Shown in pieces: positions 4,408-9,810 of a stretch of 33,655 nt of DNA. The stretch is from Paenibacillaceae bacterium. GTDB lineage: Bacteria > Bacillota > Bacilli > Paenibacillales > CANHGK01. The notes beneath the pieces were generated by a model. The model had not been told where the DNA came from. It saw only the letters and a program-made list of their open reading frames with translations, and did no database searches. The translations under genes were made by a program, and so were the position numbers. Numbering within the stretch: position 1 is the first letter of the stretch; each line of letters begins with the position of its first letter. Location of the stretch: assembly GCA_947460235.1 (NCBI GenBank), contig CANHGK010000026.1, positions 1-33,655 of the forward strand, in the 5' to 3' direction.

Positions 4408-6120
4408 ATGATTACACAATTGTCGATTAAAAACTTGGCAGTCATTGAGTTCATTTCTTTGTCATTCGATGAAGGACTTCATGTGTTTACCGGTGAAACC
4501 GGTGCGGGAAAATCGATCGTGATGGATGCACTTAGTTTGTTGCTTGGTGGTCGGGGCTCTGCGGAGTGGATTCGTTATGGCACAGATAAAGCTGAAATTG
4601 AAGCAATGTATGATCCACCAGTAGATCATCCGGCGTGGAATTGGTTGAAATCACGTGAGTACCCTGCAGACTGTTCAGAATCGATTATTGTCAGACGTGA
4701 ATTATCCCGAACCGGTAAAAATGTATGCAGAATTAACGGACAAATGAGCAATTTGGCTTCACTTAAAGAACTCGGTGAATTAATGGTAGAACTTCATGGG
4801 CAACATGAGCACCAAGCATTATCTAAATCAGAATCACATTTAGGTTGGCTTGATGCGTTTGGCGGAACACCGCTTGCAACCTCAAAATCGGCATACCAAC
4901 ATGAATATGCAAAGTTTTTGGAGACGAAACAAACGTTGGATCGCGTAAGTAAAGACGATCAACAAGCAATTCAACAAGCTGATTTGTATCGATTTCAATT
5001 AACTGAAATTCTTGAAGTGAAACCAATCGTTGGAGAAGATGAAACACTTGAAACTGATCGTAAAAGGCTTCAACATTCAGAAAAAATGATTGCAAATGCA
5101 CAAGGTGCATACGAGGCTCTCGGCGGTCAAAAAGGTGCGCTCCCACAAATACATAAAGCAATAAAATTAATTCATGATTTAATTCCGTATGATGAGAAAA
5201 ATTTAAAACCGTTACATGAGCAAATTCAATCTGCCTATTTTCAATTGGAAGATGCATCTTATGAACTACGCGATTATTCCGATGGTATCGATGCAGATCC
5301 TAAATCATTGGATTCCATTGAATCACGATTGGAGGAATTGCGAAAATTAAAGCGTAAATACGGTGTTTCGGTCGAAGATGTTCTCGCGTATGCGGAATCA
5401 TTGAAACAAAAATTAAACCAAATGGAACATCGCGACGAACTAATTGAACAATATCAAAAAGAATTATTAATCATCCAATCACGATTACATGCACTCGGAG
5501 GACAATTGCGCAGTCATCGAGCGCAATCGGCGGAAGTATTGTCGAATGTTGTCGAAGCAGAACTTCGTGATCTACAAATGCCGAGAGCTCGATTTGTGAT
5601 TCAGATTAATGATCGTCCGAATTCTAATCAATTTGGGCCGCATGGTATGGAAATTGTTGAATTTTTAATATCCACGAATCCCGGTGAACCACCAAAACCA
5701 CTGGCAAAAATTGCTTCGGGCGGAGAATTGTCACGGATTATGTTGGCACTTAAGACGATTTTTTCACGGTTGTCGAATATTGGATTATTGGTTTTTGATG
5801 AAGTGGATACAGGTGTGAGTGGAAGAGCTGCACAGGCAATTGCAGAAAAAATGGCAACATGTTCAAGAACGGCGAAAGTATTTGCTGTTTCACATTTGGC
5901 ACAAACGGCTGGAATGGCAGATCATCAATGGATTGTTGAAAAGAAAGTTGAGAACGAACGGACTTTTACCCAAGTGAATGAACTTGACCAAAATGGACGA
6001 GTTGATGAATTGGCACGGATGATTAGTGGTGCTCAAGTAAGTGACAAAACGCGAGGACACGCAGAAGAATTATTGGAAGCAGCAAATCAATTTAAGCAAA
6101 GACTTACTTTAATAAAATAA
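4408..6120 (+). CDS. recN: DNA repair protein RecN
   Basis: A 570-residue SMC-like ATPase of double-strand break repair. The Walker A loop is GETGAGKS at 29-36. The middle (about 150-390) is a long, Gln/Leu/Glu-rich coiled coil. The ABC signature ASGGELSR is at 436-443 and Walker B ends in VFDEVDTGVSG near 462-472. Length is normal for RecN (about 550-580). The ATG has AAGGGGG upstream. RecN binds broken DNA ends in the cytosol and works with RecA. It lies 32 bases after tlyA and about 100 bases before spoIVB, and is probably co-transcribed with both. Confidence 0.97.
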   Translation: MITQLSIKNLAVIEFISLSFDEGLHVFTGETGAGKSIVMDALSLLLGGRGSAEWIRYGTDKAEIEAMYDPPVDHPAWNWLKSREYPADCSESIIVRRELSRTGKNVCRINGQMSNLASLKELGELMVELHGQHEHQALSKSESHLGWLDAFGGTPLATSKSAYQHEYAKFLETKQTLDRVSKDDQQAIQQADLYRFQLTEILEVKPIVGEDETLETDRKRLQHSEKMIANAQGAYEALGGQKGALPQIHKAIKLIHDLIPYDEKNLKPLHEQIQSAYFQLEDASYELRDYSDGIDADPKSLDSIESRLEELRKLKRKYGVSVEDVLAYAESLKQKLNQMEHRDELIEQYQKELLIIQSRLHALGGQLRSHRAQSAEVLSNVVEAELRDLQMPRARFVIQINDRPNSNQFGPHGMEIVEFLISTNPGEPPKPLAKIASGGELSRIMLALKTIFSRLSNIGLLVFDEVDTGVSGRAAQAIAEKMATCSRTAKVFAVSHLAQTAGMADHQWIVEKKVENERTFTQVNELDQNGRVDELARMISGAQVSDKTRGHAEELLEAANQFKQRLTLIK

Positions 6121-6146
6121 CAACTTTTCGTACATCCTCTTGGTGA

Positions 6147-6189
6147 CGGTTCAAATTTCTGAACCGCCAAATCGCATTCCGCCAAATCG
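6147..6189 (+). other. Hairpin and 15-base direct repeat in the spoIVB leader
   Basis: CGGTTCA (6147-6153) and TGAACCG (6160-6166) can form a 7-bp hairpin with loop AATTTC, without a following T-tract. The 11-mer CCGCCAAATCG occurs twice, at 6164-6174 and 6179-6189, a 15-base period. Function is unknown; it could slow read-through from recN or be chance. Confidence 0.4.
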
Positions 6190-6217
6190 GGATGACGAAC
6201 GGGAGGGGATTCATGCA

Positions 6218-7276
6218 ATGGAGTTCCGCAAGGCAAGGCAGCGCACCAAGCAGATGAACCTCATTGCTTTTGTTATGTTGTTGTTGTTTAGTTTTACTGT
6301 AACTCCTTTTGTATTTGCCGCATCAGTGCAAGTCATCCCAGGAGGTCAAACGATTGGGATTCAAATTCAGTCTCAAGGTTTACTCGTTGTTGGGAAATAT
6401 CGGGTGAATGATCAGGATGCAAATCCGACGGTACGAGTTGGTGATCGTATTATGTCGGTAAACGGGTCAAAAGTAACAAATGTAAATGATTTTCGTTCCA
6501 TCGTACAAGAATTAGGTGCAGCTAAAAAAGAAGTGACGTTGACCATTGTACGCGATGGGACACAAATGAATGCAACATTAATTCCTCAATACGATGCGTC
6601 AATGAAAACGTATCGTGCTGGACTTTATGTGCGTGATCAGACGATTGGGATCGGAACATTGAGCTTTATCGTGCCAGAACAACATTTGTATGGTGCGCTA
6701 GGTCATCCCATTACGGACCCTGATTCTAAATCACTCGTTCCGATTACAAAAGGACTGATTTTTCCGGCAGATGTTACTGGATTCCGCAAAGGTACAAGTG
6801 GTATACCAGGAGAAAAACATGCCCAGTGGTCCAATTCACAGGCGCCAAGTGGAACGATTGAACGGAATACACGATTTGGGATTTTTGGTACCTGGAACAA
6901 CAATTCAACATTGGATGTTTTAAAAACAACACCGATGCAAGTCGCATTGCCAAATGAAGTTCATGTTGGTGATGCAGAATTGTTAACTTCAATCCACGAC
7001 AATAAAGTTGAACATTTTAAAGTTCAAATTATTCAAACCGTTCCTCAGGCTGAACCTGAAGTGAAAAGTATGTTGATCAAAGTTACTGACGAGCGATTGT
7101 TAACACAAACAGGTGGAATTGTTCAAGGGATGAGCGGTAGTCCAATTGTTCAAGATGGTAAATTAGTTGGTGTATTGACACATGTGTTAGTGAATCAACC
7201 AACGGTTGGTTTTGCAGCATATATGGAGTGGATGTTGCGTGAAGCCGGTGTAATTGGTAAACAAAACGCTGCTTAA
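6218..7276 (+). CDS. spoIVB: SpoIVB sporulation serine peptidase
   Basis: A 352-residue S55 peptidase that signals from the forespore to activate SpoIVFB/pro-sigma-K processing. A single hydrophobic N-terminal segment (about 14-34) acts as signal or anchor. A PDZ domain follows (about 60-115, with VGDRIMSVNG), then the SpoIVB peptidase domain. The catalytic His is H163 in ALGHPITD and the catalytic Ser is S308 in GMSGSPI. I chose the ATG at 6218 because GGGAGGGG lies at 6201-6208, nine bases upstream; an in-frame GTG at 6140 has no ribosome-binding site and adds a hydrophilic PPNR repeat ahead of the signal segment. The protein is somewhat shorter than the B. subtilis one (about 425). The order recN-spoIVB-spo0A is conserved. 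No clear SigF/SigG promoter was recognised. Confidence 0.95.
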   Translation: MEFRKARQRTKQMNLIAFVMLLLFSFTVTPFVFAASVQVIPGGQTIGIQIQSQGLLVVGKYRVNDQDANPTVRVGDRIMSVNGSKVTNVNDFRSIVQELGAAKKEVTLTIVRDGTQMNATLIPQYDASMKTYRAGLYVRDQTIGIGTLSFIVPEQHLYGALGHPITDPDSKSLVPITKGLIFPADVTGFRKGTSGIPGEKHAQWSNSQAPSGTIERNTRFGIFGTWNNNSTLDVLKTTPMQVALPNEVHVGDAELLTSIHDNKVEHFKVQIIQTVPQAEPEVKSMLIKVTDERLLTQTGGIVQGMSGSPIVQDGKLVGVLTHVLVNQPTVGFAAYMEWMLREAGVIGKQNAA

Positions 7277-7293
7277 TTTCAATTAAAACAAAT

Positions 7294-7360
7294 TTCGACA
7301 GGCAGACTCGACAACGAGTCTGCTTTTTTTCGACATTAATTGCGTTGTTGACTTGTCGAA
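7294..7360. promoter_or_regulatory. Three Spo0A boxes upstream of spo0A
   Basis: The 0A-box core TGTCGAA or its exact complement TTCGACA occurs three times: 7294-7300 (minus), 7329-7335 (minus) and 7354-7360 (plus). The third lies directly behind the -35 of the spo0A promoter, and the second overlaps the T-tract of the spoIVB terminator. Spo0A binding to its own upstream region is established in B. subtilis, so autoregulation is the natural reading. The function here is inferred from the motif. Confidence 0.75.
7302..7330 (+). terminator. Rho-independent terminator after spoIVB
   Basis: GCAGACTCG (7302-7310), loop ACAA, CGAGTCTGC (7315-7323), then seven T's. It is a perfect 9-bp stem ending the ispA-side operon and separating it from the spo0A promoter. 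Confidence 0.95.
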
Positions 7361-7377
7361 TGCGCTATGATTACAAT
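7348..7377 (+). promoter_or_regulatory. SigA-type promoter of spo0A
   Basis: TTGACT (7348-7353), an 18-base spacer, then TACAAT (7372-7377). An exact 0A box fills the start of the spacer. A sigma-H promoter, known for spo0A in B. subtilis, was not recognised. Confidence 0.6.
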
Positions 7378-7413
7378 ATTAGCAAAGAGATATAATTTAA
7401 GGAGTTGTTGGGA

Positions 7414-8238
7414 ATGATTCGTGTACTAATTGCTGATGATAATTTCGAGTTCGTACAATTATTAAATGAGTTTTTATCATCTCAAGAGGGAATTCAAGTC
7501 GTTGGTACTGCATTTCATGGGATCGATGCAATTGAACAATTAGAAAAAATGGAAGAATTTCCGGATGTAATTTTACTTGATATTATTATGCCTCATTTGG
7601 ATGGTCTAGGTGTATTGGATCGAATTCGTCAAATGAGCCCTCAACCGTTTCCGAAGATCGTGATGTTAACGGCCTTTGGACAAGAAGTAATCACACAAAA
7701 AGCCGTACAATTGGGTGCAGCCTATTATATGCTTAAACCTTTTGATTTAGACCATTTGTACCAAAGAATTCAATTGCTTGCTGGCACGGTGATATCGAGT
7801 CAAACAACGCAAGGTTCGATACCAATGACAACGAATTCAATAATTATGAAACAACCGGTAGCAGGAAATTCCAATTCAAAGGCGAAAACATTAGATAACC
7901 AAATTACGACAATTATTCATGATATAGGAGTTCCAGCACACATTAAGGGGTATCAATATTTGCGTGAAGGAATTCTAATGGTTTACCATAATATTGATAT
8001 TTTGGGTGGAGTTACGAAAATCTTGTATCCTGCGCTTGCAGATAAGTTTAACACCACACCAAGCAGAGTTGAACGTGCGATCAGACATGCACTTGAAGTT
8101 GCATGGACGCGCGGAAATATCGATTCAATTAGTCATTTATTTGGGTATACCGTAAATATTAGCAAATCAAAACCGACGAATAGTGAATTTATTGCGATGA
8201 TTGCAGATCGTCTTCGTTTAGAGGATCGTGTATCGTAA
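7414..8238 (+). CDS. spo0A: Sporulation master regulator Spo0A
   Basis: A 274-residue response regulator. The receiver domain (1-125) has acidic residues D10/D11 in IADDN, the phospho-acceptor D56 in LLDIIMP (same number as in B. subtilis) and the conserved Lys in MLKPFD. A variable linker (about 128-165) leads to the Spo0A_C DNA-binding domain (about 165-270). That domain carries the signature [14 protein letters not shown] and the recognition helix region [17 protein letters not shown]. The ATG at 7414 has AAGGAG at 7399-7404, nine bases away; an upstream TTG at 7405 is too close to it. Phosphorylated Spo0A binds TGTCGAA boxes, and three exact ones lie just upstream. Confidence 0.98.
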
Positions 8239-8262
8239 CAATTGCTATTCCTCGCGTTAAGA

Positions 8263-9810
8263 ATGGGGAGTTGCGATCTGTCCTATACATATCAATTACT
8301 GACGATTTTGATTATGTTAAGCGGATTCTATTGGATTGTATTTCTACAACTAAAAAATTATCGTAATCAAAGAGAAATCAAGCATCTCAATTATTTAAAA
8401 CAGCAATATGCTTTATTCTATATATTGGAGCCGATCAACAATGACTTCTTATTTGTTGAAACATATGGAACATTATTTGATCAAAGCTTTAAATCGATTG
8501 GTATTCAATTAAAAGGATTATTTCTCACACAATTGGATCAATTTTTGATTAATGCAAACTATCCGGTCTTAGGGTTGAATCACAAATTATTGGAGTTATT
8601 AAAAACGGGGCAACCCTTTGTTGCAGTCCATGACTTACCGGGAAATCAAACTGTTTATACGATTTACTCCAAATTATCAGACGTTGGACAACCGGATCGG
8701 ATCTCTGGAATTGTTATTGAAATATCCGAACAAAAACAAATTGAGCGTAATTTACGAACGCAGCACCAACAAGTACTGGCAATTTTGGATCATGTTGTGG
8801 ATGTTTATTTTATTTGTAATATGGATTTAATAATTCTTGAAATGTCCGAAGGGATGCGAAATTATTTATCGGAAGATGAATTAGAGATTCTTAAAACGAG
8901 TCCATTTTCTAATCTCGATGTTGCTCAAGAGTTTGCTCAAGAGTTGGTTCAGATTATTGCACATGTTGTACATAACCGTGAGTCACATACACTCGAGAAA
9001 TTCTCCAAAAAACTAAATTTGTGGTTAGAAATTACCGTTATACCATTCAAAGATGAAATTATTTTTGGGATTCGCAATATTACATCTCGAAAAGAAGAAC
9101 AAATTGCATTAGAAAGAATGTCGCAATTAGATTTACTTGGGAATATGGCAGCTGCGATTGCACACGAAATTCGAAATCCGATTACAACGGTATCAGGGTT
9201 CATTCAATTACTATCAAAAGATCCCAAATGGTCTGTTTATTCGCATTTAAATTTGATGTTATCTGAAATTCAGCGCGCCGATCGAATTATTAGTGATTTT
9301 CTTGCGCTGTCAAAAAGCAAAGTTGTTCAGCGGTTACCAATGGACTTAAATTTAATCATTCATTCACTTGTCCCGTTGATGGAGTCGTACGCATTTTTGC
9401 ATAAACAACATCTGCGTATGGAACTCAATAAAGATGTACCGACTTCATTGCTTAATGATGCAGAAATTCGGCAAATGGTGCTTAATTTAGTACGCAATGG
9501 TTTTGAATCGATGGATGAAAATGGAGAAATCGTCATCCGTACTGGAATTGACGATTTGAGTGGTCGTATTGAGTTAATAATTAGTGATCAAGGCCATGGG
9601 ATCGATCCTACAATTATGGACAAAATAACCTTACCACTTTTTACAACGAAAAATAATGGAACTGGATTAGGTTTATCTGTTTGTCAACGGATTGCTGAGC
9701 GCCATGATGCTGAGTTGAATTGGACATCAACTGCACAAGGTACTACGGTCCGTTTACTTATTCCTATCCACCAAATACCGACACATGATCAAGTGTTAAT
9801 ACATGACTAA
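8263..9810 (+). CDS. PAS sensor histidine kinase next to spo0A (sporulation-kinase-like)
   Basis: About 515 residues. There is one N-terminal membrane helix (about 9-27), two PAS-like sensory regions (roughly 55-165 and 170-280), a HisKA domain and a HATPase domain. The phospho-acceptor is H301 in IAHEIRNP. The N box LNLVRNGFESM, G1 DQGHGID and G2 GTGLGLSV are present, so it should be catalytically active. The H-box AAAIAHEIRNPITTVSGFIQLL-like stretch is of the KinA-KinE type. There is no partner response regulator except Spo0A itself, whose stop is about 24 bases upstream. The start is uncertain: the ATG at 8263 lacks a strong ribosome-binding site and a TTG at 8242 is possible, so translation may be coupled to spo0A. 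The direct substrate (Spo0F or Spo0A) cannot be told from sequence. Confidence 0.85.
   Translation: MGSCDLSYTYQLLTILIMLSGFYWIVFLQLKNYRNQREIKHLNYLKQQYALFYILEPINNDFLFVETYGTLFDQSFKSIGIQLKGLFLTQLDQFLINANYPVLGLNHKLLELLKTGQPFVAVHDLPGNQTVYTIYSKLSDVGQPDRISGIVIEISEQKQIERNLRTQHQQVLAILDHVVDVYFICNMDLIILEMSEGMRNYLSEDELEILKTSPFSNLDVAQEFAQELVQIIAHVVHNRESHTLEKFSKKLNLWLEITVIPFKDEIIFGIRNITSRKEEQIALERMSQLDLLGNMAAAIAHEIRNPITTVSGFIQLLSKDPKWSVYSHLNLMLSEIQRADRIISDFLALSKSKVVQRLPMDLNLIIHSLVPLMESYAFLHKQHLRMELNKDVPTSLLNDAEIRQMVLNLVRNGFESMDENGEIVIRTGIDDLSGRIELIISDQGHGIDPTIMDKITLPLFTTKNNGTGLGLSVCQRIAERHDAELNWTSTAQGTTVRLLIPIHQIPTHDQVLIHD

Follow-up and report, generated by a model that had tools for sequence, protein, structure and literature searches.

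Control of spo0A and spoIIA by sigma-H is a textbook step of sporulation. Sigma-H promoters carry a -35 element of consensus RNAGGAWWW, 11–13 nt upstream of a -10 element RNNGAATWW, and spoIIG and spoIIE are known for an unusually long spacing between -35 and -10. In the excerpted account of Bacillus subtilis on which we draw (PMC12090719), spo0A is transcribed by sigma-A from Pv and by sigma-H from Ps, and boxes 0A1 to 0A4 make up a set of autoregulatory sites that has long been known, with 0A4 overlapping the Ps -10. According to the same excerpts, these boxes mainly repress the rate of initiation (0A4 being of little effect), modelling derives the rise of spo0A from the levels of RNA polymerase holoenzyme, and spoIIG and spoIIE are sigma-A-dependent, with the spoIIG boxes lying upstream of the promoter (PMC12090719). 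For Clostridioides difficile, the parts of the literature consulted describe strong binding of the Spo0A DNA-binding domain upstream of spo0A, a core motif TGTCGAA and a proposed autoregulation (PMC3485338); in that species spo0A reportedly depends on sigma-H, and its kinases are described as orphans (PMC3485338, PMC11210211).

Here we analyzed the spo0A locus of a Paenibacillaceae bacterium (genome of 2.72 Mb, 99.2% complete) within a single 33,655-nucleotide stretch of DNA, hereafter the window. Like the B. subtilis region as excerpted, the locus has several 0A boxes upstream of spo0A, and its box 3 is the counterpart of 0A4; unlike that region, it lacks a sigma-H -35, holds box 3 in the spacer of a sigma-A-like promoter, and has a kinase gene after spo0A (Table 1). 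C. difficile, on the evidence of the same partial sources, shares the TGTCGAA core at spo0A but differs in its sigma-H control and its orphan kinases. The excerpted spoIIG and spoIIE cases resemble what we propose for the window, namely Spo0A control of a sigma-A promoter, but concern genes other than spo0A, and the 18-bp spacing in the window is not a long spacer. Autoregulation of spo0A through multiple 0A boxes is thus already known in kind, and two of the three boxes here are conserved. What is new is that a sigma-A promoter appears to have taken the place of a sigma-H one while the surrounding 0A boxes were retained, and that a kinase gene lies directly behind spo0A. None of the titles and abstract openings screened described a 0A box overlapping the terminator between spoIVB and spo0A, a move of spo0A from sigma-H to sigma-A, or an operon joining spo0A to a kinase gene.

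Table 1. Features of the spoIVB-spo0A-kinase region, in window coordinates. Box positions relative to transcription are counted from an estimated spo0A transcription start at 7384.
Feature	Position	Strand	Remarks
spoIVB (SpoIVB peptidase), gene upstream of spo0A	6140..7276	+	TIGR02860, 376 bits against a cut-off of 305; true start uncertain
0A box 1, exact	7294..7300	-	about -90 to -84; relatives have no fixed counterpart
Intrinsic terminator stem-loop of spoIVB	7300..7325	+	T-run 7324-7330; -16.2 kcal/mol
Degenerate 0A box CTCGACA, 6/7	7307..7313	-	within the terminator stem-loop
0A box 2, exact	7329..7335	-	upstream member of the order-wide inverted pair; about -55 to -49
Place of the relatives' sigma-H -35	7336..7353	+	here TTAATTGCGTTGTTGACT, without AGG
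Sigma-A-like -35, TTGACT	7348..7353	+	hexamer match; box 3 follows directly
0A box 3, exact	7354..7360	+	downstream member of the conserved pair; in the sigma-A-like spacer; about -30 to -24
Sigma-A-like -10, TACAAT	7372..7377	+	spacer 18
spo0A	7414..8238	+	TIGR02875, 363 bits; Response_reg and Spo0A_C domains; in-frame TTG at 7405 is a possible start
Histidine kinase (HisKA and HATPase_c)	8242..9810	+	start TTG 8242 or ATG 8263

The 0A-box cluster and its counterparts in relatives

The original prediction held that three exact copies of TGTCGAA/TTCGACA lie between spoIVB and spo0A, far above chance for a 7-mer. All three are there. Their clustering is indeed unusual, given that three box starts never came within 60 bp in 400 whole-window simulations under a first-order Markov model. 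The 7-mer itself is another matter: it is not rare in the window and is only slightly over-represented (11 copies versus a shuffle mean of 7.47, with 7 of 100 shuffles reaching 11). With exact and near-exact boxes adjoining a genuine spo0A (TIGR02875), the region has the make-up of an autoregulatory spo0A promoter. An Rfam scan of 7000-7600 gave no match. Elsewhere, recN contains two exact TGTCGAA copies (5540 and 5550, spanning 5540-5556) 10 bp apart, the separation of a tandem 0A pair; this is probably chance.

We searched 198 genomes of the host's order and compared spo0A loci from 106 of them plus the window's own. The 110 order loci (L112-L221) were reduced to 101 rows, or 102 with the window, by excluding two duplicates (L149, L161) and seven loci with no detectable upstream spoIVB (L142, L144, L155, L157, L159, L160, L216). 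The window's genus and family (f1) are represented in this sample by a single genome. Its Spo0A is fast-evolving (end branch 2.11) and has its closest named match in Saccharibacillus, at 57%, from which we take the order to be that of Paenibacillus.

An inverted pair TTCGACA...TGTCGAA upstream of spo0A, 26 bp from start to start, was found in 94 of the 102 rows. The spacing is 27 bp in one further row and 25 bp in the window, and six rows lack an exact upstream partner. Boxes 2 and 3 correspond to this pair in position and orientation, and the recognition stretch of the Spo0A DNA-binding domain is unchanged in the window's genome. Because the pair is conserved order-wide and the DNA-binding stretch has been kept, the autoregulation originally proposed is supported: the region is a putative autoregulatory control region of spo0A, to which Spo0A is predicted to bind.

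Box 1 fared differently in the comparison of upstream regions. In most relatives, a distal plus-strand box precedes the paired box by 74-106 bp, and an AT-rich ATTATA stretch separates the two. Among the 96 rows with a pair, this distance is 74-76 bp in 49, 85-86 bp in 21, 19-20 bp in 3 and 93-106 bp in 3, and the remaining 20 have no such box. Box 1 lies 35 bp upstream of box 2 in the opposite orientation to the relatives' distal box, and matches none of these classes. We also considered whether box 1 or box 3 is a copy of the relatives' distal box accompanied by an upstream sigma-A promoter; the window has no such spacing, and this candidate was rejected. Nor did the 137-bp gap between spoIVB and spo0A show a separate sigma-A promoter upstream. 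The two main distal-box distances in the relatives differ by roughly one turn of the helix, as though to preserve phase.

The predicted promoter between boxes 2 and 3

When aligned on box 3, the sequences of the order give the consensus TTCGACAGaAGGAattt-N9-TGTCGAA, in which AGGAATTT is the predicted -35 and GAA(T) of box 3 the predicted -10 of the relatives' sigma-H promoter Ps of spo0A; the sigma-H consensus given above is borne out by these sequences. The window shares with its relatives the inverted box pair and an upstream spoIVB, which in most of them also has a terminator. It departs from them where they carry TTCGACAGAAGGAATTT-N9-TGTCGAA in a pair spaced at 26 bp: its own pair is spaced at 25 bp, and AGGA is absent. 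In 98 of the 102 rows, AGG with A, G or T as the next base occurs 17-18 nt before box 3 (within 26 nt). The four rows without it are the window, L163 of family f3, L146, which is one base off (AAAGT), and L154, which has a sigma-H-like site further downstream. Among the excluded loci, L142, L144 and L155 still have AGG(A/G/T) ahead of a TGTCGAA box, while L157 has the TTCGACA box and lacks the exact plus-strand one. Two more of them, L159 (genome G068) and L160 (genome G021), belong to one genus (g18) and are second spo0A-like genes with no exact 0A boxes upstream. In L216, an unrelated stretch, by eye part of a transposase gene, lies upstream of spo0A at the place expected for the end of spoIVB, and the usual promoter pair is absent.

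Scoring gave a concordant picture. In the last 140 bp, only the window and L163 had a best sigma-H score as low as 14/18; the other 100 rows scored 18 (7 rows), 17 (57 rows), 16 (33 rows) or 15 (3 rows). The window reached no more than 14/18 anywhere within 7000-7414, a 16/18 sigma-H-like site occurring 930 bp upstream, inside spoIVB. The window still has the GAAT of a sigma-H -10, within and just past box 3 (7358-7361). What the window does contain is TTGACT-N18-TACAAT, which matches TTGACA/TATAAT at 10 of 12 positions with a spacing inside the 16-18 bp of sigma-A promoters. Ranked by sigma-A score downstream of box 3, L163 came first among the order rows (11/12) and the window next; L204 and L194 tie with the window yet retain the sigma-H -35. 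Composition-matched Markov sequences reached the window's score in 56 of 3000 cases over 72 bp and 91 of 3000 over 137 bp, and that of L163 in 10 of 3000 simulated sequences. A match of this quality argues weakly when taken alone, and the case for a sigma-A-type promoter draws on its coincidence with the loss of the sigma-H -35. As originally claimed, a box lies next to the -35: box 3 directly follows TTGACT and thus sits in the spacer. That earlier observation did not reveal that the promoter between the boxes departs from that of nearly all relatives.

In 38 of 80 spo0A loci outside the order, the 300 bp upstream contained an exact plus-strand box. AGG stood 16-18 nt before the nearest box in 26 of these, and the other 12, including Alicyclobacillaceae and several Clostridia, lacked it there. 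The Ps-type layout is thus widespread in the phylum, not universal.

SigH, its other targets and the kinase gene

Three sigma-H target genes, including spo0A, were examined. Upstream regions of spoIIAA and spoVG were compared in 14 genomes, namely the window's and 13 relatives. At spoIIAA, 12 of the 13 relatives have a GCAGGA -35 that matches the core at 7 or 8 of 8 bases. The sigma-H motif was absent upstream of this gene in the window's genome (L276) and in f3, and both have sigma-A-like sites scoring 10/12 instead (TTGAAA-N18-TAAAAT in the window's genome and TTGAAA-N18-TATGAT in f3), compared with at most 8 in the other 12 genomes. Simulated sequences reached these scores in 58 and 27 of 3000 cases, respectively. 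At spoVG, all 13 relatives, f3 included, have the sigma-H motif; none was found upstream of the window's spoVG (L289), where the sigma-A score is 8/12, no better than in several relatives.

Loss of the sigH gene does not account for this, and we rejected it: the window's genome encodes an intact (360.9 bits) and conserved SigH, with 84-89% identity to 12 relatives and 71% to f3. Sites matching a strict sigma-H consensus number 24 in the genome versus one for a reversed control pattern; taken with the identity of SigH to those 12 relatives, this count does not favor an altered sigma-H specificity either. We inspected 20 of the 24 sites, and many lie 25-130 nt ahead of an open reading frame with a Shine-Dalgarno-like site. 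A looser pattern gave 18 hits, mostly inside or near open reading frames and with no usable positive control, which the strict pattern did supply. Sigma-H thus seems to be alive in this lineage, but spo0A, spoIIA and spoVG appear to have left it, and its regulon in the window's genome may have shifted. Several of the genes preceded by strict sites (L306-L325) look signalling-like, among them a histidine kinase, two related PilZ-like proteins, an Hpt-like protein and a response regulator, all named by eye.

Behind spo0A, on the same strand, the kinase gene starts 3 or 24 nt past the stop codon, the adjacency expected of a two-component operon. The two genes probably form one operon, and we infer that the kinase acts on Spo0A. 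Among NCBIfam models, the kinase is closest to AtoS and KinD, below their cut-offs. A similar same-strand kinase was found downstream of spo0A in none of 146 other loci with at least 700 bp of downstream sequence (of 148 loci examined, 125 reach at least 1400 bp and 73 at least 2300 bp), and in none of 14 order genomes with 2.2 kb. According to the part of the literature consulted, it is for lack of such a neighborhood that sporulation kinases are termed orphans (PMC11210211). A search for Spo0B (PF14682) in 18 order genomes gave two sub-threshold matches and detected the B. subtilis protein; the model is too narrow here for the result to bear on the phosphorelay.

Readings of the locus

On balance, we think it likely that the ancestral pair of boxes 2 and 3 was kept while the sigma-H promoter Ps was lost and a sigma-A-type TTGACT-N18-TACAAT arose in its place, since the sigma-A match coincides with the loss of the sigma-H -35. 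Under such an exchange, sigma-A RNA polymerase would transcribe spo0A and the downstream kinase gene together. Bound to boxes 1 and 2, Spo0A~P would occupy a position suited to activating a sigma-A promoter, and on box 3 it would lie within the polymerase footprint and slow initiation, so that activation from boxes 1 and 2 and repression from box 3 could combine into a feedback with a ceiling. The sign of this regulation in the window is a guess, given that the B. subtilis boxes are mainly repressive. On this view, it is Spo0A~P and the co-transcribed kinase, rather than sigma-H, that would raise spo0A when the cell starves.

The locus might instead be an ordinary Ps, at which sigma-H uses the retained GAAT with a degenerate -35 and TTGACT/TACAAT arose by chance. 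The survival of GAAT at box 3, the conservation of SigH and the 56 simulated sequences that equal the sigma-A score all fit this idea, but we consider it unlikely, without dismissing it, given the missing AGG at a place where 98 of 102 rows have it, the pair spacing of 25 instead of 26, and the lack of the motif at spoIIAA and spoVG while consensus sites persist elsewhere in the genome. Were the lineage losing sporulation, a degenerating spo0A promoter with boxes surviving by chance could also explain the loss of sigma-H motifs, and the small genome and fast-evolving Spo0A would agree with it. However, three exact boxes, an unchanged Spo0A recognition stretch and an intact, conserved sigH speak against decay, as do intact spo0A, spoIVB, spoVG and spoIIAA and the open frames after spoIIAA that resemble the spoIIAB and sigF of relatives; we hold it to be improbable. 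Yet another proposal concerns the terminator: Spo0A bound to box 2, and to box 1 at the stem foot, would alter spoIVB termination, as a roadblock or through changed read-through into spo0A. The overlap itself is as originally described, box 2 covering two T of the T-run; box 1 abuts the foot of the stem, and contact recurs in the order. Of 92 rows with a recognized terminator, 21 have an exact box in contact with the uninterrupted T-run, where uniform placement predicts 12.4 (the sd of 3.2 assumes independent rows, an assumption that does not hold), and such contact is seen in 17 of 34 rows with an intergenic gap of at most 200 bp, versus 5.6. But 13 of the 21 contacts fall in f11, where a single layout was inherited (the others are two each in f6, f7 and f8 and one each in f3 and f1, the latter being the window), and contact is absent in the other 71 rows. 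The boxes keep their distance to the downstream pair (distal box at 74-76 or 85-86 bp in 70 of 96 rows), not to the terminator. Moreover, transcription of spoIVB is a late event of the forespore, while the activity of Spo0A~P falls before division and in the mother cell. The suggested effect of Spo0A on spoIVB transcript ends therefore found no backing in the relatives, most of whose boxes are clear of the terminator. We rate such a function as very improbable and not supported as a selected one; the terminator adjoining box 2 appears simply to end spoIVB.

Beyond the promoter exchange at spo0A, a broader reading is that sporulation entry has been uncoupled from sigma-H, maybe in parallel in f3: spo0A and spoIIA would have moved to sigma-A promoters, the boxes been kept and a kinase partner gained, with sigma-H conserved and its sites standing before other genes. 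We put this forward tentatively, as a possibility that we find somewhat less probable than its opposite. The window and f3 may have made the exchange together or apart, and their common ancestry is neither shown nor rejected: a tree holding them together was not rejected (AU p 0.293), both being long branches. A lineage with sigH and Spo0A boxes but without sigma-H promoters would offer a natural test of the part played by sigma-H, and of whether Spo0A feedback alone can carry the sporulation decision. A spo0A-kinase operon would name a direct candidate for the kinase feeding Spo0A, and, if the reading is true, the orphan master regulator would have been turned into an ordinary-looking two-component system. 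As a minor observation on the neighboring gene, the stem of the spoIVB terminator often spans the spoIVB stop codon in rows of the order (L169, L175 and L116, for example).
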